The position numbers were made by a program, and so were the translations under genes. This document shows, in pieces, positions 29,098 through 38,689 of a stretch of DNA of 51,942 nt. The DNA lies in assembly GCA_021800035.1 (NCBI GenBank), contig JAJYZJ010000007.1, positions 1 to 51,942 of the forward strand, in the 5' to 3' direction. Below the pieces are notes generated by a model. The model was not told the origin of the DNA and ran no database searches. It worked only from the letters and a program-made list of their open reading frames with translations. Origin of the DNA: an archaeon (GTDB lineage Archaea > Thermoproteota > Thermoprotei_A > Marsarchaeales > Marsarchaeaceae). How positions within the stretch are numbered: the first letter of the stretch is position 1; the number at the start of each line of letters is the position of its first letter.

Positions 29098-29874
29098 TTG
29101 CGAACATCCGCGCTTAGACCTTCTCGCTCAGGCGCGGCCTACCATGTGGGGCTGGGCAAAGACAGGCTTCCGAGGTCATTTCTTCTTCCGGGCGACCCTG
29201 CAAGGGCGAAGAAGATTGCAAATAGTTGGGACTCGTATGAGATTCTTGCTGAAAGCCGAGAATTTACTTCGTACAGGGGCACTTATCAGGGCACACCCAT
29301 CGGAGTGATAAGCACCGGCATAGGAGGACCGGCCCTTTCCATTGTGGTCGAAGAGCTTGCGATGATGGGCGTTAGAACCATGGTACGGGTAGGGAGCTGT
29401 GGCTCCGTTTTGAAGGGGGTAAGGGTCGGAGACATAGTGATTTCAAAAGCCGCAGCCAGGTTTGACGGAGCGAGCAGGACCTACGCGCCTCCCGAATATC
29501 CCGCGTCCGCGGACCCGTTGGTTTTTTGCGCATTGGTAGAGGCCGCGGAAAGAGCTGGGGTCAGATACCATACAGGAGTAACTGCATCCTTTGACTCTTT
29601 TTATGCTGGTCAGGCGCGGCCAGGGTTCAAGGGATTCCTTCCTCCCGGTTCAAAGAGCTGGCTATCCAATTTGCAAAGATTGAACATCAAGAACGTGGAG
29701 ATGGAAGCGGCTACGCTGTTTACCATTGCCAATATTTATGATATAGCCGCGGGTGCGGTTTGTGCAGTTTTCGCAAACCGTGTGACCAACGAATTTGGCG
29801 AAGAGGGAGAACGAGAGGCAATCCTTGTAGCCAACGAGACTATAAAGAGTCTTGCGCAGAGGGCTAAAGTGTGA
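29098..29874 (+). CDS. udp: Uridine phosphorylase-like nucleoside phosphorylase
   Basis: 258 residues of the PNP/UDP family: phosphate loop LLPGDPARAKKIA (about 29-41), STGIGGPALSIVVEELAMMGV, RVGSCGSVL (about 98-106) and the ribose-binding NVEMEAATLF (about 199-208). It splits pyrimidine (or purine) nucleosides with phosphate. TTG start, with AGGAG about 10 bases upstream and TATA-like catatag near 29050. The end overlaps the GTG of the regulator gene by 4 bases, so the two are translated together. Confidence 0.9.
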   Translation: MRTSALRPSRSGAAYHVGLGKDRLPRSFLLPGDPARAKKIANSWDSYEILAESREFTSYRGTYQGTPIGVISTGIGGPALSIVVEELAMMGVRTMVRVGSCGSVLKGVRVGDIVISKAAARFDGASRTYAPPEYPASADPLVFCALVEAAERAGVRYHTGVTASFDSFYAGQARPGFKGFLPPGSKSWLSNLQRLNIKNVEMEAATLFTIANIYDIAAGAVCAVFANRVTNEFGEEGEREAILVANETIKSLAQRAKV

Positions 29875-30815
29875 AGCCGCCCTGCGAAGTAATGGTCAAA
29901 TCTTTTCTTCCTGCTGTTCGCGCGCTGGTTTCGCGTAGGCTTCGTGAACTTGGTTACGCTCAAGCAGAGATTGCTGGAATGCTTGGCGTAACGCAAGCCG
30001 CGGTGAGCAATTACCTTTCGGCCGACCGAGAAACGCAAGTTCGTAAGGTCAGGGAACTTGGGATGGATGGTGCGCTACTTGAGTCGATGCTTGAGGAGCT
30101 GGTGCCAGCAACCGTGCGGAGTGACACGCTCTCTACCAGTATTCTCTATCGCCACTGGAGCTCACTCTTGTCTTCTGGCACTGTTTGCAATTTTCACAGA
30201 GCTCAGGCGCGGGGACTGCTCGATTGCGAGTTCTGCCTTCATGAAATGAAGGGCGGCGACCCGGAGAGGCATGGTGTGCTTGCCTCGCTAAAAGAAGCGA
30301 CAAAACTTGTGCAGGCGTCTCCAACCATTGCTCGCTATATACCAGAGGTCTACACGAATATAGTGTATTGTGTGCAGAGCGCCGTAAACGAGAAGGACGT
30401 GGCGGGAGTGCCTGGCAGAATTGGAAGGAGAGGAGGGCGAGCTCTCGCCCTGAGAGAGCCGGAATTCGGAGCCTCGAGTCATATGGCCAAGGTAGTTCTG
30501 GCGTTACGTAGCAGGAATCCTTGGGTGAGGTCAGCAATCAATCTTAAGCTGGACAAAGTGCTGCTTGAGTGGATCGCAACGGTTGTCGGCCACACGCCGG
30601 CAGTGCTGGATAACTACATCGATTTGGAGGAGCTGTTCTCGAAACTGAAAGAGGCTCTGGTTAGTTCGCCTCTTGATGCCTTGGTCGACCCCGGTGGGAG
30701 AGGATTCGAGCCGAATGTCTATCTCCTAGGGATAGATCCCGTGAGCCTGTGCAACATAGCAAATTCTGTTGCCACGCTTGCCAGCCGGGGAAGCCGATTC
30801 GCAGGAGCTGGATAG
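29871..30815 (+). CDS. HTH-ThiN regulator (ThiR-like)
   Basis: 314 residues. The N-terminus has the helix-turn-helix found in archaeal ThiR and ThiD-ThiN proteins: AVRALVSRRLRELGYAQAEI (about 16-35) and GVTQAAVSNYLS (about 39-50). A middle section holds CEFCLHEM (possible metal site), and the C-terminal half (about 150-300) resembles ThiN, with PEFGASSHMAKVVLALRSRNP and VRSAINLKLD. ThiR family members sense thiamine phosphate and repress thiamine genes. Here the gene is coupled to a nucleoside phosphorylase, not to a thiamine gene, so the regulon may be different. Confidence 0.82.
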   Translation: MKPPCEVMVKSFLPAVRALVSRRLRELGYAQAEIAGMLGVTQAAVSNYLSADRETQVRKVRELGMDGALLESMLEELVPATVRSDTLSTSILYRHWSSLLSSGTVCNFHRAQARGLLDCEFCLHEMKGGDPERHGVLASLKEATKLVQASPTIARYIPEVYTNIVYCVQSAVNEKDVAGVPGRIGRRGGRALALREPEFGASSHMAKVVLALRSRNPWVRSAINLKLDKVLLEWIATVVGHTPAVLDNYIDLEELFSKLKEALVSSPLDALVDPGGRGFEPNVYLLGIDPVSLCNIANSVATLASRGSRFAGAG

Positions 30816-31141: not shown

Positions 31142-31588
31142 TCAAACGTCCAGCACCACAGTGCAACTCCAACCTTTAGCATCACTGATTACACGGAATC
31201 CATGATAAGTGACCGCCTTGACATCGACACCCAACTGATGCCGACGGGCGTCAATCTGCTCGCCCATCCCTAGAGCCCTTAGCCGAAGTCCGGAGTCAGT
31301 CTTGGCTATCTCGACCTCTACTGTCTTCAGGAGCAACCTCTTTGCGTCCTTGAGAAACACAATTTCAGACAGGAAGGCATGAAGAAGTGACTCTTCGTCC
31401 ATCGCCTCCACGCGAATAACCTCTTCTGTGACAGCCCGAAGCGATGCCATATCGACCATTGACGAAGTGAGTGCGAGAGCGGCCTCTTGAAAGAGCTCGC
31501 GCAGACTCTCCGCTCTGGCTTCAAAAGCGAGATCACCGATTGCTACATCTTCCAGATATCGATAGGGCAATGTTAGCTCTCCTTTCAA
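31142..31588 (-). CDS. Archease (RtcB activator)
   Basis: 148 residues, normal archease length. Opening YRYLEDVAIGDLAFEARAES corresponds to the family's (F/Y)xxxxHTADxGxxAxG region, where the usual His-Thr reads Leu-Glu but the Asp is kept. LFQEAALAL, ESLLHAFLSEIVFL and the closing VKAVTYHGFRV are conserved. Archease speeds guanylylation and turnover of the RNA ligase RtcB in tRNA splicing; rtcB is not in this window. The altered HTAD is worth noting. Confidence 0.85.
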   Translation of the reverse strand: MKGELTLPYRYLEDVAIGDLAFEARAESLRELFQEAALALTSSMVDMASLRAVTEEVIRVEAMDEESLLHAFLSEIVFLKDAKRLLLKTVEVEIAKTDSGLRLRALGMGEQIDARRHQLGVDVKAVTYHGFRVISDAKGWSCTVVLDV

Positions 31589-31711: not shown

Positions 31712-32005
31712 ATGAAAGTACTGAAGACATCCGAGATTAAAAGGAGGCTGAAATCAGTTCATGGCTGGAGCTATACAAAGAAGGGACTCGTGAAAAGATA
31801 TGAATTCGGAGACTTCCAGCAGGCGCTGGATTTCATAATCAGGATTGCTCCTTTTGCGAACGAGCTGGACCATCATCCGGACATATACAATTCATACAAC
31901 CGTGTAAAGCTGACTTTGTTCTCTCATGAGGCGGGTGGGATTACCGAGCTTGACTTCAAACTTGCCGAGAAGGTGGACTCGCTCGTGTCGCCAGGCTCTA
32001 CGTAG
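31712..32005 (+). CDS. phhB: Pterin-4a-carbinolamine dehydratase
   Basis: 97 residues, full length. The active-site set is complete: ANELDHHPDIYNSYNRV (two adjacent His, about 52-53) and SHEAGGITELD with the third His. It dehydrates 4a-hydroxytetrahydrobiopterin-type carbinolamines in pterin recycling. A TATA-like gttaaatc lies about 33 bases upstream. Located 29 bases before the chorismate mutase gene and probably co-transcribed, linking it to aromatic amino acid metabolism; no aromatic amino acid hydroxylase is visible here. Confidence 0.93.
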   Translation: MKVLKTSEIKRRLKSVHGWSYTKKGLVKRYEFGDFQQALDFIIRIAPFANELDHHPDIYNSYNRVKLTLFSHEAGGITELDFKLAEKVDSLVSPGST

Positions 32006-32034: not shown

Positions 32035-33165
32035 GTGCAAGGGGCTAGCTCTGAACAGGATTCAAGTCTCGCTGAGTACCGTAAGCAGCTTGACGCTATT
32101 ACTCTCGATATCGTTCACGCAATTGAAAAGCGCCGCGAACTCAGCGAAAAAATTCGGGATTTGAAGAAGCACTTGGGTTCTCCGGTACTGGACCTTTCGC
32201 GTGAGGAGGAACTTGTCAACCGGCTTGTAAAGGGAAGTTCGGTGAGCGAGAAGCCTCAGCTTAGGCGCGTTCTTCGCGAAGTAGTATCTCTCTGCAGAAA
32301 TGTGCAAAAGAACGTCAAGGTCGCAGTTCCCCCATTAATGGGAGGTTACTGTGAAGAAGCGGCTACTGCCATTCTTGGTTCCTCGCCGCAGATTGTCGGA
32401 GTGGACAGCGCAGAAAGCGCGTTGAGAACAGTGAATTCAGGATACGCCGATTACTGCGTTGTTCCATACGAGGGAACTGCCCAGGGAGCCTTCCCTGCGA
32501 CGCTTGACTCACTGGTTGAACTACCTTTGAGTGTCATAGGCGAAACCGTAATGGGAATTCAGTATTATGTTGTTTCTTCCGAAGACTCGGCCGCCAAAGT
32601 GAAATCAATACATGGAGATCCCGAGGCCATTGCGGCCTGTAGAGGGTTTCTCCTCAGGGTTTTTCCGCACGCGAGGTTGATATATGAATCCACTTTGTCA
32701 GGCTCTCGCTTGGAGATGAGAAGTAAGAGCGCGTCGCTCGTCACCTCATACGACGCTCTTCGATCTCGACTACATGTGCTCGCCGAAAACGTCCAGGATC
32801 AGAAGGATAACGCAGTCCGATTCATTCTGGTCGGCAGGAAGGGAGGGCATATTTCGGCGGAAGCCAAGAAGGGGGTCAGATATCGAACGAGCCTTGCATT
32901 TACTGCGGCCAATCGTCCGGGGGCATTGGCCGAGATACTTTCTGAATTTTCCAGTCGAAAAATCAACTTGACCATGATTGTCTCAAGGCCCATTCGCAGC
33001 AAGAAGTGGGAGTACGCCTTTGTGGTCGACTTTGAATGCATTCAGGACGACAAGCGTTTCGAGGAGGCGCTTCGTGCTGCGAGGCCAAATATGACTTCGC
33101 TAAAGCTCTTTGGAACCTACCCGGCCGTCTCAGCCAAAGAACTCGGCTTTTCTATAGGAAAATAG
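32035..33165 (+). CDS. pheA: Chorismate mutase - prephenate dehydratase-like - ACT protein
   Basis: 376 residues in the P-protein layout. Residues about 10-85 form an AroQ chorismate mutase with its key residues (YRKQLD, KRRELSEKI, LK, LSREEELV). Residues about 95-270 align with prephenate dehydratase, and about 285-360 form an ACT domain. However, the dehydratase motifs differ from active enzymes: the catalytic Thr of TRF is Val (NAVRF, V261), VVPIENS reads VVPYEGT, GPxGTFS reads PPLMGGYC. In the ACT domain ESRP reads VSRP (V316). The mutase looks active; the dehydratase may be altered or lost. GTG start. Confidence 0.85.
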   Translation: MQGASSEQDSSLAEYRKQLDAITLDIVHAIEKRRELSEKIRDLKKHLGSPVLDLSREEELVNRLVKGSSVSEKPQLRRVLREVVSLCRNVQKNVKVAVPPLMGGYCEEAATAILGSSPQIVGVDSAESALRTVNSGYADYCVVPYEGTAQGAFPATLDSLVELPLSVIGETVMGIQYYVVSSEDSAAKVKSIHGDPEAIAACRGFLLRVFPHARLIYESTLSGSRLEMRSKSASLVTSYDALRSRLHVLAENVQDQKDNAVRFILVGRKGGHISAEAKKGVRYRTSLAFTAANRPGALAEILSEFSSRKINLTMIVSRPIRSKKWEYAFVVDFECIQDDKRFEEALRAARPNMTSLKLFGTYPAVSAKELGFSIGK

Positions 33166-34625: not shown

Positions 34626-35213
34626 TTGGGAGAGAGGGAGAGCTTGAAGCTGCAGATTAACGATGCTATTACTACAATCCGAGGGTTACAGAGCAAGATA
34701 GACATCTCAACAAACAAGATGGACGAGCGTGCAAAGCAGTTGCTGCAGTCGGCAGGGGAATACTACGGAAAGCAGGAGCGGGAAAGAGCCACTCTATACG
34801 CTAACGAAGTCGCACTGATTCGCAGTCTGTCCGGTAAACTCTCAAAGAGCAGACTGGTCCTTGAAGTCATCGAGCTCAGACTGGAGACTGTCGTAGAAAC
34901 CGAAGACTTGGCTTCAACTCTTCGCCCTGCAATAGATGCAATTAAGAACGTAAAGAACGACATTGGTCCAATCATTCCAAAGGCTGACGAACTGCTCGCT
35001 CAGGTGAACGGCCAGTTGAGCGATATACTTGCGACCACATTCCATACCGATGTTAAGTCGGTTGACACGGTCATCAAAACTTCCAGTGCTGAAGAGGTAA
35101 TGTCGGAAGTTAGGGCCATGCTTGGTGCAGGCTTAGCGGCTGAACTGCCAACTCCGCCAGAGACCGAATCGGTTGCGCTCACCCAGTCTCAGGAAGAGCT
35201 TTCAGAAGCCTGA
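34626..35213 (+). CDS. cdvB: ESCRT-III / Snf7-like protein (CdvB family)
   Basis: 195 residues, highly helical. The N-terminal segment (KLQINDAITTIRGLQSKIDISTNKMDERAKQLL) and the following helices (RATLYANEVALIRSLSGKLSKSRLVLEVIELRLETV) match the ESCRT-III core of archaeal CdvB proteins, which polymerise on membranes during cell division. The C-terminus (about 150-195) is acidic and Pro-rich, and I see neither a winged-helix domain nor an evident MIM2 motif for the CdvC/Vps4 ATPase, so this may be a shorter CdvB1/B2-like paralogue. TTG start with GGGAGGT upstream; cdvA and cdvC are not in the window. Confidence 0.87.
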   Translation: MGERESLKLQINDAITTIRGLQSKIDISTNKMDERAKQLLQSAGEYYGKQERERATLYANEVALIRSLSGKLSKSRLVLEVIELRLETVVETEDLASTLRPAIDAIKNVKNDIGPIIPKADELLAQVNGQLSDILATTFHTDVKSVDTVIKTSSAEEVMSEVRAMLGAGLAAELPTPPETESVALTQSQEELSEA

Positions 35214-35305: not shown

Positions 35306-38300
35306 TCATTCGCACTTGGTGAATCCGCACATCTTGCAAGTAAAGCAGCCTCCTTCATTTACGAGAGATTCCTCTCCACAGTTCGGGCATCGCTCAAGGC
35401 CGGCCAGCGTGTGCTTTAATTCGGTTGTGTCAGCAACAAAATCTGCGAGATTCGGTGCAGGGCTCGAAGGCTGGGCTGGTTGCTGAGACTGCGGCGCAGC
35501 AGTGCCTCCAGCGGGTGAATTCATCATCTCTAGCGCCTTCGCTATCGCGTCCGGGACACTGAGGAGATGCAATCCCTTGTCCCACGTAGCGTTTCTTCCC
35601 TGGATTCCTTTCAGACTGTGAATAACCGCGGTAATATCTCCTCCGAGCTGCAGGAAGTTACTGATCAGTTTGCCGATGGCCTCGCTGTATGTTTTCTCTT
35701 CGCTACCCGATTTGCCCAGATTTACAAAGACTTCCCTTACTCTGTCGTTTTCGTCCTTGTTAACAGTTATATAGATTGGACCCTGCACTAGCACCAGTTT
35801 GATAGTTTGCCCGCTCAAGCTCCTCGGCCTTTCCCATTCCTTCTTTAACCCGACTTCGTCTTTTTTGAGTTCTGTTCTATCTGTTATCAGAACGCCTTCT
35901 CGGGATCCTTCGCGGTAGACAGTAATACCTTTGCAACCAGCCTTCCAAGCTTGGAAGTAAATTTGCTCGACCTCTTCGACGGTTGTTTCCTCGGATAAAT
36001 TGACGGTGCTCGAGATGGCGCTGTCTATATGCTTCTGAATCACTCCCTGAAGCTTAACCCGAAATTCGGGTTTGATTTTGTGGGCAGGCACAAAATACTC
36101 AGGCAGTTCGTCCTCGCTCTTTAGGTTAAATTTCGCAATGTATTCCGCTACAAGGGGATGGTAGACTTTGAAGTATTCTTGGCTCAGAGATTCGGACCTT
36201 CTCGTATAGCTGAACGCAAAGATTGGTTCTATTCCACTCGAAGTCCCGGCAAGCACCGAGCCGCTTCCTACTGGAGGGACTGTGAGTATGCAGACATTAC
36301 GAAGGCCATTCTCCTTGATTTTGGACCTGAGTTCTTCGGGCAGTGCAGCAATGAACGGTCTTTCGAGATGTTTTGTCGCGTCGAACAGCGGAAATGGCCC
36401 CTTCTCTTTTGCAAGTTCCACGCTCGCGTCATAAGCCCAGAGTTTGATTTTTTCGAACAGGTGGTCTATATATTCCAGAGAATCCTCGGAGTCATACTTT
36501 ATCTTTAACTTCGCGAGCATATCGGCTAGGCCCGTGAACCCGAGACCTATTCGCCTTCCTGCTCTGCAGGCTTCGCTCTGCGCCGGAAGCGGGTGGCGGT
36601 CATTGTTATAGGTTAATACGTCGTCCAAGAACCTCACACTTACTCGCACACACTTTTCTAGACTCTCCCAGTCAAGCGTCGGGCGGGCTCCGAAGGCATC
36701 CTTCACAAAGTGAGAGAGGTTTATGCTGCCGAGGTCGCAGGCGCCGTAAGGTTGCAGCGGCTGTTCGCTGCAGGGATTCGTGGTTAGCACTTCCAAGCCG
36801 TTATATTCGCTTGGACTCCCTCGCTTTACCGCGTCCCAAAAGATAATACCTGGCTCAGCCCAGTCCCTAGCTGAGTTCACAAGCTCTTTCCAGAGTTCCC
36901 GGGCACGCACGACCCTTTCAATTCTCCCAGTAACAGGGCCATCATACCAGAGGGCGAACTCGGAATCCGACTCGACTGCGCGCATGAACTCGTCTGTCAC
37001 GCGTACGCTTATGTTCGCGTATCTCACGTTCTTCAGATTTCTCTTTACTTTAATGAAATCAAAAATGTCCGGATGGTCGACTCTGATTGTGATCATGAGC
37101 GCGCCTCTACGGCCGGCTTGACCGATGGTACCGGTTGTCTCGCTCATAACATTCATGAATGACACCGCACCTGTGGAATAGGCCGCGGCGTTATGCACGG
37201 GAGCCCCTTTCGGTCGAAGAATGCTGATATCCGTACCCACGCCTCCTCCCAGGCTGTAGGTTCTTGCCGCTTCTTTGCACCAATCGAATATTCCCTCTAT
37301 AGAATCCTCTTTAACGGGAAGTACGTAACAGTTCCCGGTGAGCACGCCATTTCCCAGCACGAATGTATGCGTCTTTGGCTCTTCGCAGCAGTACACTTCT
37401 TCTTCAAACGCAGTTGTAGTGATTGACTCTATGCCTATGGTGTAGTTCCTTTGCGGTTGCGGAGACTTTCTGTATATGGCAGCGTGGTCAGTTCTAAGGA
37501 ACAGGTCCTCGGAGAGCGTAGACTTTCGAAGTCGAAGGCGATAACGCGCGCCGAGCTGCATTTTATCCCGGGTGCCTTTCTTAACCTTAGTGATCCTGTT
37601 TCCGATGATTCCCAATCTGCCTAGCTGCATTTTGATTGCCTGAAGGTCCCCTTTTTGTCGCGACTCGAGCGAGACGCCTCCACTACGAGAATCGACTCGG
37701 GCGCTTGCTGCAAGGAAACCTGACAGGAAGCCATACCAGTATGACGAGGTTTCATTCTCTGGAGGGGGTCGTGTGAAATCATGGGCCGAATTCATTTCAT
37801 TCGTGAAAAGGATATCTCGAGGGATTTTGCTGCTTAGGTCGACTTCTCGCGCTGCAGGAAGATACTTTGCTAGTTCTCTCTTTGGGCCTGACAACTGCAG
37901 CCGATATGTATTCCCGTTCTTTCGTCGTTTATCTGGCCCAGTTCCGTACACAATCCCGTGAACCACACCATCGTAATACCTGCGGTCCTTTGCCGGCCTG
38001 GTGGGAAGGCTTAGCGCCAGTCCGCGATAACCGCTGAGATTCATCAGTTGTCTGGTGGTCGTCTTGACAAGCGCCCCCTTTGTTCTCAACACCCACTCGT
38101 GATTACCCGTGGCGAAGAGAGTATCGCCGTTCTTGAGTGAAAGTCTGAAGAGCTTTTGCCTCCCGAAACTTCTGAACTTTACCCTCGACCATCCTGCAGG
38201 AGTCAGGACCTCTACATCTTCGCCTGCAATGCTGGATATCGGAACACAATCTATTGTGCTCGAAACGGAGAGAGACTGGGCTACCAGCCCGCTACCTTGG

Positions 38301-38689
38301 GAGGAAGTGCGCACTCCTGCTGAGGGCTGGCGTCTTATGAGGACGTTTGTGCTTCCCCTAAGGCAGTTGAGTAATGTGGCCCTCCTGCTCTGGCCCGCGC
38401 CGAATAATATTCTGCCTCCAGGTATGAACGCGAAATTTTCTAGAAGCCAATAGAATTTCTCTTCCCACTCGGCCCTCTTTTCATTCGAGCTCTCTGCGCT
38501 CGCTATTTCCCTTGCTACACGTCGCCACATCTGCGGGGGAGTGATCTCCTGCAGCGTCCCTTTCATGTCCTTCAGGGCATACTTTTCTAGAAAAACCTTT
38601 GCACGGAGGTCGTCGCCCCCGAAGAACTCGCTCGTCACCTTCGGGACGCCGGCGGTCGCGTCTTGGTCGTTGATTTCTGACTCCGTCAA
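35306..38689 (-). CDS. nrdJ: Class II (B12-dependent) ribonucleotide reductase with intein
   Basis: 1127-residue precursor; 782 residues remain after removing the intein (109-453). Extein motifs: RATLLN/CYVLP (redox-active Cys, directly after the intein), YSLGGGVGTDISILRPKGAPV, the radical-site motif NPCSEQPLQPYGACDLGSINL, and GLGFTGLADML. The C-terminus is a Cys-rich zinc ribbon (CPNCGEE, CFTCKMCGFTKCE), usual for adenosylcobalamin-dependent forms. It reduces ribonucleotides to deoxyribonucleotides. TTG start at 38689 with a GGAGG about 7 bases upstream and a TATA-like box near 38711-38720. Confidence 0.95.
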   Translation of the reverse strand: MTESEINDQDATAGVPKVTSEFFGGDDLRAKVFLEKYALKDMKGTLQEITPPQMWRRVAREIASAESSNEKRAEWEEKFYWLLENFAFIPGGRILFGAGQSRRATLLNCLRGSTNVLIRRQPSAGVRTSSQGSGLVAQSLSVSSTIDCVPISSIAGEDVEVLTPAGWSRVKFRSFGRQKLFRLSLKNGDTLFATGNHEWVLRTKGALVKTTTRQLMNLSGYRGLALSLPTRPAKDRRYYDGVVHGIVYGTGPDKRRKNGNTYRLQLSGPKRELAKYLPAAREVDLSSKIPRDILFTNEMNSAHDFTRPPPENETSSYWYGFLSGFLAASARVDSRSGGVSLESRQKGDLQAIKMQLGRLGIIGNRITKVKKGTRDKMQLGARYRLRLRKSTLSEDLFLRTDHAAIYRKSPQPQRNYTIGIESITTTAFEEEVYCCEEPKTHTFVLGNGVLTGNCYVLPVKEDSIEGIFDWCKEAARTYSLGGGVGTDISILRPKGAPVHNAAAYSTGAVSFMNVMSETTGTIGQAGRRGALMITIRVDHPDIFDFIKVKRNLKNVRYANISVRVTDEFMRAVESDSEFALWYDGPVTGRIERVVRARELWKELVNSARDWAEPGIIFWDAVKRGSPSEYNGLEVLTTNPCSEQPLQPYGACDLGSINLSHFVKDAFGARPTLDWESLEKCVRVSVRFLDDVLTYNNDRHPLPAQSEACRAGRRIGLGFTGLADMLAKLKIKYDSEDSLEYIDHLFEKIKLWAYDASVELAKEKGPFPLFDATKHLERPFIAALPEELRSKIKENGLRNVCILTVPPVGSGSVLAGTSSGIEPIFAFSYTRRSESLSQEYFKVYHPLVAEYIAKFNLKSEDELPEYFVPAHKIKPEFRVKLQGVIQKHIDSAISSTVNLSEETTVEEVEQIYFQAWKAGCKGITVYREGSREGVLITDRTELKKDEVGLKKEWERPRSLSGQTIKLVLVQGPIYITVNKDENDRVREVFVNLGKSGSEEKTYSEAIGKLISNFLQLGGDITAVIHSLKGIQGRNATWDKGLHLLSVPDAIAKALEMMNSPAGGTAAPQSQQPAQPSSPAPNLADFVADTTELKHTLAGLERCPNCGEESLVNEGGCFTCKMCGFTKCE
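37331..38365 (-). mobile_element. Intein in ribonucleotide reductase at active-site Cys
   Basis: 345 codons in frame, inserted between RATLLN and CYVLPVKED. Block A is CLRGSTNVLIRR (Cys 1); block B is ATGNHEW with the His; block F reads YCCEEPKTHTFVLGNG; the last residues are VLTGN before extein Cys+1, so the usual penultimate His is Gly. One LAGLIDADG-like helix remains, FLSGFLAASARV (about residue 320-331), with Ala at the acidic position, and the second is not evident; homing activity is probably gone. Splicing is needed because the +1 Cys belongs to the enzyme's active site. Confidence 0.93.

Follow-up and report, generated by a model that had tools for sequence, protein, structure and literature searches.

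Gene Content of the Locus

We analyzed a 51,942-nucleotide stretch (the window) of a metagenome-assembled genome (MAG) from the archaeal family Marsarchaeaceae (contig JAJYZJ010000007.1 of GCA_021800035.1). At its center of interest is an open reading frame for a 376-residue protein with a chorismate mutase (CM) domain, a domain derived from prephenate dehydratase (PDT) whose catalytic motifs have been replaced (hereafter PDT*), and an ACT domain. The features discussed below are as follows.

31142-31588, minus strand: archease (PF01951, 5.1e-36), a conserved divergent neighbor, given for context
31712-32005, plus strand: pterin-4a-carbinolamine dehydratase-like gene (PF01329, 3.8e-28), the upstream partner in five of five family genomes
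32035-33165, plus strand: CM-PDT*-ACT protein, open reading frame with a GTG start, 376 residues
32077-32310, plus strand: chorismate mutase domain CM_2, residues 15-92 (PF01817, 3e-12), active site intact
32341-32841, plus strand: PDT-derived domain, residues 103-269 (PF00800, 2e-27; motif table and dN/dS), catalytic motifs replaced
32815-32823, plus strand: V261-R262-F263, the position of the TRF motif (alignment and motif table)
32890-33081, plus strand: ACT domain, residues 286-349 (PF01842, 1.4e-13), GAL kept and ESRP reading VSRP

The CM_2, PDT and ACT matches all exceed the Pfam cut-offs, and the PF00800 score (96.6 bits against a cut-off of 25.2) places the second domain in the PDT fold family. 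The protein nevertheless misses the NCBIfam PDT equivalog cut-offs, with 174 of 219 bits for PRK11898 and 124 of 577 bits for PRK10622. Judged from its sequence, it is a CM-PDT-ACT (P-protein) fusion in which the chorismate mutase site is intact and the dehydratase site is non-canonical. An AlphaFold2 model of the protein, made with one relative, had low confidence (mean pLDDT 43, pTM 0.30).

The upstream gene matches the pterin-4a-carbinolamine dehydratase (PCD) profile and its translation carries the HHP motif within LDHHPD, in agreement with the first-pass annotation of this DNA, which had placed the fusion gene next to a pterin dehydratase. In all five genomes of the family that encode the fusion, the PCD-like gene lies directly upstream of it with archease beyond, and this conserved adjacency suggests that PCD and the CM-PDT* protein are functionally linked. 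Among 60 relatives, PF01329 is found only in this family (f1) and in family f9. That the pterin gene serves a phenylalanine hydroxylase was considered and rejected, since PF00351 has no match in any of the five genomes, the f1 members tested.

Several other genes of the window deserve mention in their own right. An adenosylcobalamin-dependent ribonucleotide reductase (35309-38689, minus strand; TIGR02504) is interrupted by about 310 residues that match no family and look intein-like by eye, starting near CLRGSTNVLI and ending near VLTGN followed by C. A Snf7/CdvB-like ESCRT-III protein that falls below the NCBIfam CdvB1/B2 cut-offs is encoded near the fusion gene (34626-35213, plus strand), and an HTH-ThiN protein (29871-30815, plus strand) is possibly a thiamine-responsive regulator.

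Distribution of the Divergent Form

Among the 60 relatives, the divergent form is carried by five genomes (G000, G001, G002, G004 and G005) that belong to one family and span three genera. Searched against 229 genomes of the same class, a profile of the family matched only these five, at 651 to 685 bits, with the next best protein at 191 bits. Fused CM-PDT-ACT proteins are numerous across the 398 genomes of the phylum, and the 29 best-scoring ones, which we read, have canonical PDT motifs in every case. In a tree of the PDT-ACT part, the five proteins form one clade (support 100/100) whose stem measures 1.46 changes per site. Given that this clade is restricted to a single family, the changes are a lineage trait and not an accident of one contig. 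The family sample comprises six genomes, of which G003 (0.6 Mb, 71% complete) has no match for the gene. A search of genome contigs with the single protein returned a same-genus contig as the sole match, and a scan of viral contigs found no relatives.

Active-Site Residues

In an alignment to E. coli PheA, each of the eight CM positions has either the conserved residue or one typical of archaea (R16, R33, K44, D53, R56, E57, C87 and Q91), which bears out the earlier statement that the mutase residues look complete. Of 29 intact fused archaeal P-proteins, 23 likewise have a cysteine at the S84 position. The AroQ type II (PF01817) catalytic residues R11, R28, K39, D48, R51, E52 and Q88 are kept in all five family proteins.

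The dehydratase site is another matter. Using E. coli PheA numbering for the lost positions, we find that T278 is V261, that E159-N160 has become E146-G147 (context VPYEGT), that the GPxGS loop reads PLMGG at residues 100-104, that SHPQ reads GDPE at 194-197, and that Q215 is A201. The 54 other archaeal PDTs compared, all from the same phylum, are invariant at G110, P111, N160, S233, T234 and T278, and have Q or E at 215 and H or N at 209. None of the five family proteins retains GP, N160 (now G or D), H209 (now D) or Q215 (now A); the T278 position reads V, V, C, T and T, and the ST loop is variable or shortened. R279, F280 and E159 are retained, so that, of the canonical set GPxGS, E-N, SHP, STxxA and TRF, the five proteins share no more than the E of E-N and the RF of TRF. 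The altered loops also hold newly fixed residues (P99, M102, Y145, T148, P154, Y177, D195, E197 and A201), among them the acidic changes of H209 to Asp and Q211 to Glu. The sister genus g4 has retained the TRF threonine and lost the rest of the site; therefore, the change from Thr to Val is not by itself the defining one. For comparison, changing T to A in the TRF motif of a fungal PDT abolished its activity (PMC11980547).

These results agree with the first-pass annotation, which had reported a valine in place of the catalytic threonine (NAVRF), altered IENS and GPxGTFS motifs, and changes too many for sequencing error. The same residues are found in an independent MAG of the same genus (96% identity) and most of the losses recur in two further genera, which excludes such error. 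On the alignment evidence, the changes in the dehydratase site exceed ordinary variation.

An ordinary prephenate dehydratase with an unusual site is an unlikely reading, though one with points in its favor. Aromatization of prephenate is readily catalyzed by acid, and D195 or E197 could therefore stand in for the usual residues; E146 and RF are kept, the TRF threonine survives in g4, and such an enzyme would explain phenylalanine synthesis in the four genomes with no other PDT (see below). However, nearly every motif is replaced, including the residues invariant in the 54 other proteins, and the scores lie below both equivalog cut-offs.

In the ACT domain, E329 of the ESRP motif is V316, giving VSRP, and the position is V or G among the five family proteins, in which G-L and SRP are kept; in the two Phe motifs, G, L, S, R and P are thus retained. 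In the 54 canonical archaeal PDTs the same position is Y in 21, E in 20, L in 12 and I in one, the glutamate likewise missing from 34, and a working fungal PDT naturally has NSRP (PMC11980547). Given that just 20 of the 54 have the glutamate, VSRP is not diagnostic of a lost Phe site: the substitution had been read correctly in the first-pass annotation, but its use as evidence for such a loss does not hold.

Pathway Context in the Five Genomes

Each of the five genomes encodes chorismate synthase and the tryptophan-pathway enzyme IGPS, and has a single CM_2 match, the fused one. TyrA, sought with PF02153, gave no match in any of the five, although class matches to this profile can be weak and a very divergent TyrA could escape it. 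Among class relatives with a canonical PDT, 24 of 24 have a PF02153 match together with CM (24/24 versus 0/5, Fisher p = 8e-6, the five being one lineage and not independent). Phenylalanine hydroxylase was not found with PF00351 in any of the five genomes. Neighborhoods of aroC, viewed by eye only, revealed no aromatic amino-acid cluster.

The search for a second dehydratase that had been proposed for this genome found none, as the MAG has one PDT-family gene. For the family as a whole the answer is mixed: no other PDT was found in four of the five genomes, and at completeness of 78 to 93% such a gene would escape detection in all four with a probability of about 4e-4, assuming independent misses, whereas G002 has a separate, canonical, monofunctional PDT (L021) on a 7.5-kb contig of matching composition. 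That contig has tetranucleotide correlations of 0.89 and 0.91 with two other contigs of G002; true fragments give 0.90 to 0.94, and correlation with contigs of other family genomes is 0.37 to 0.45. Contamination as the source is consequently not favored, although the contig may conceivably come from a close relative. On this contig (G002:C85), L021 is accompanied by a transposase-like open reading frame (L092), and the PDT groups with those of family f9.

Taken together, the known consumers of the mutase product are mostly missing in the five MAGs, which are incomplete. Given an intact mutase, chorismate being made, and no other CM_2 or TyrA, we infer that prephenate is used.

Selection on the Altered Domain

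We estimated dN/dS by the Nei-Gojobori method for each domain in two genome pairs. Between G000 and G001 the values are 0.24 for CM, 0.041 for PDT* and 0.19 for ACT; between G004 and G005 they are 0.12, 0.076 and 0.13. Behind the value of 0.041 are 2 nonsynonymous and 15 synonymous differences (Fisher p = 4e-8). The difference between domains (p = 0.04) involves few changes and is weaker evidence. PDT* is the best-preserved part of the protein and therefore functional, and strong purifying selection together with newly fixed residues indicates a domain that was retooled and is not decaying. A relic being lost from organisms that take up phenylalanine and tyrosine would account for the missing known tyrosine enzymes, and for the missing known phenylalanine enzymes in four genomes, but is very improbable: the selection test contradicts it, with PDT* at 0.04 and 0.08 below both CM and ACT, new residues are fixed across three genera, CM is intact and a Trp-pathway gene is present.

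We are confident that the protein joins a selected, non-canonical PDT-derived domain to a mutase with an intact site. The first-pass annotation had suggested that the second domain had become a sensor or had come to accept another substrate; a change of role under selection is upheld, with both options as candidates.

Comparison with Known Systems

PheA from E. coli and its fused archaeal homologs share the three-domain order, the intact CM site, the PDT fold family and an ACT domain with GAL and SRP, and differ from the 376-residue protein in that its PDT catalytic motifs are replaced and its scores fall below the equivalog cut-offs. Monofunctional archaeal PDTs, including L021 of G002, are homologous to it over PDT and ACT, but keep the canonical motifs and lie outside the clade of five. 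GqqA (PDB 7alz), a PDT with AHL acylase activity, is an example of a PDT-ACT protein that has gained a second function (PMC8192741); it complements an E. coli pheA mutant and so remains a PDT.

BacA-type enzymes are derived from PDT and decarboxylate prephenate without losing its hydroxyl group. They resemble the 376-residue protein in this origin and in having lost the TRF threonine, yet a decarboxylase of this type is a very unlikely identity for it. BacA-type proteins keep GPxGTSS, S/T-HP and STSxAA and lose E-N and the R of TRF, which is the reverse of the pattern described here and disfavors the assignment, and they are without CM or ACT. A phmmer comparison of three BacA-type proteins with the five family proteins returned no match; the BacA-type proteins compared were plasmid genes, two of them annotated BacA.

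Proposed Function

Our tentative preference is for a chorismate mutase in which the cleft inherited from PDT has been remodeled to handle prephenate, or a ligand related to it, in a non-canonical role. The PDT active site would have been rebuilt once, in the ancestor of the family, and then held under strong selection. The mutase would make prephenate, and the rebuilt cleft would bind prephenate or its amino-acid form and act on it non-canonically, most likely still contributing to its consumption; the newly fixed acidic D195 and E197 and the retained E146 and R262-F263 may serve in this cleft, with the ACT domain as the probable amino-acid-sensing part. Evidence against a rebuilt enzyme comes from T278, which is replaced in two of the three genera and whose replacement was fatal to the fungal enzyme (PMC11980547). 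In addition, the ST loop, variable or shortened within the family, is as compatible with ligand binding as with catalysis, and the separate canonical PDT of G002 means that PDT* is not needed there for dehydration.

Somewhat less probable, but a serious alternative, is a non-catalytic sensor in which the PDT-derived domain and ACT bind a ligand, whether an amino acid or a pathway intermediate, and thereby regulate the chorismate mutase. Such a domain could dispense with catalytic positions, as has happened here with Thr, Asn, ST and GP, and the ST loop unconserved within the family, the largely kept ACT motifs, the strong constraint on the domain and the separate PDT of G002 point the same way. 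A sensor, however, would leave prephenate with no known consumer in four genomes, and a regulated mutase without a downstream enzyme is implausible unless unknown enzymes exist. We favor the rebuilt enzyme over the sensor on two grounds: the mutase would hardly have stayed intact if its product went unused, and PDT* is the sole PDT-family protein found in four genomes. More speculatively, the fusion and the adjacent PCD-like protein might together supply a previously undescribed path from prephenate to phenylalanine, tyrosine or both, with PDT* catalyzing a new reaction, in archaea without TyrA or phenylalanine hydroxylase and mostly without a canonical PDT; we regard this as rather doubtful.

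PDT-family genes are readily annotated from a Pfam match, and the 376-residue protein would therefore pass as an enzyme of phenylalanine biosynthesis even though its canonical active site is gone. If PDT* does have a new activity, it could fill a real gap: the lineage makes chorismate and has a gene of the tryptophan pathway, but has no known route to tyrosine and, in four genomes, none to phenylalanine. If it is instead a sensor, the family would illustrate clearly how an enzyme domain can become a regulatory module while remaining part of the same polypeptide.
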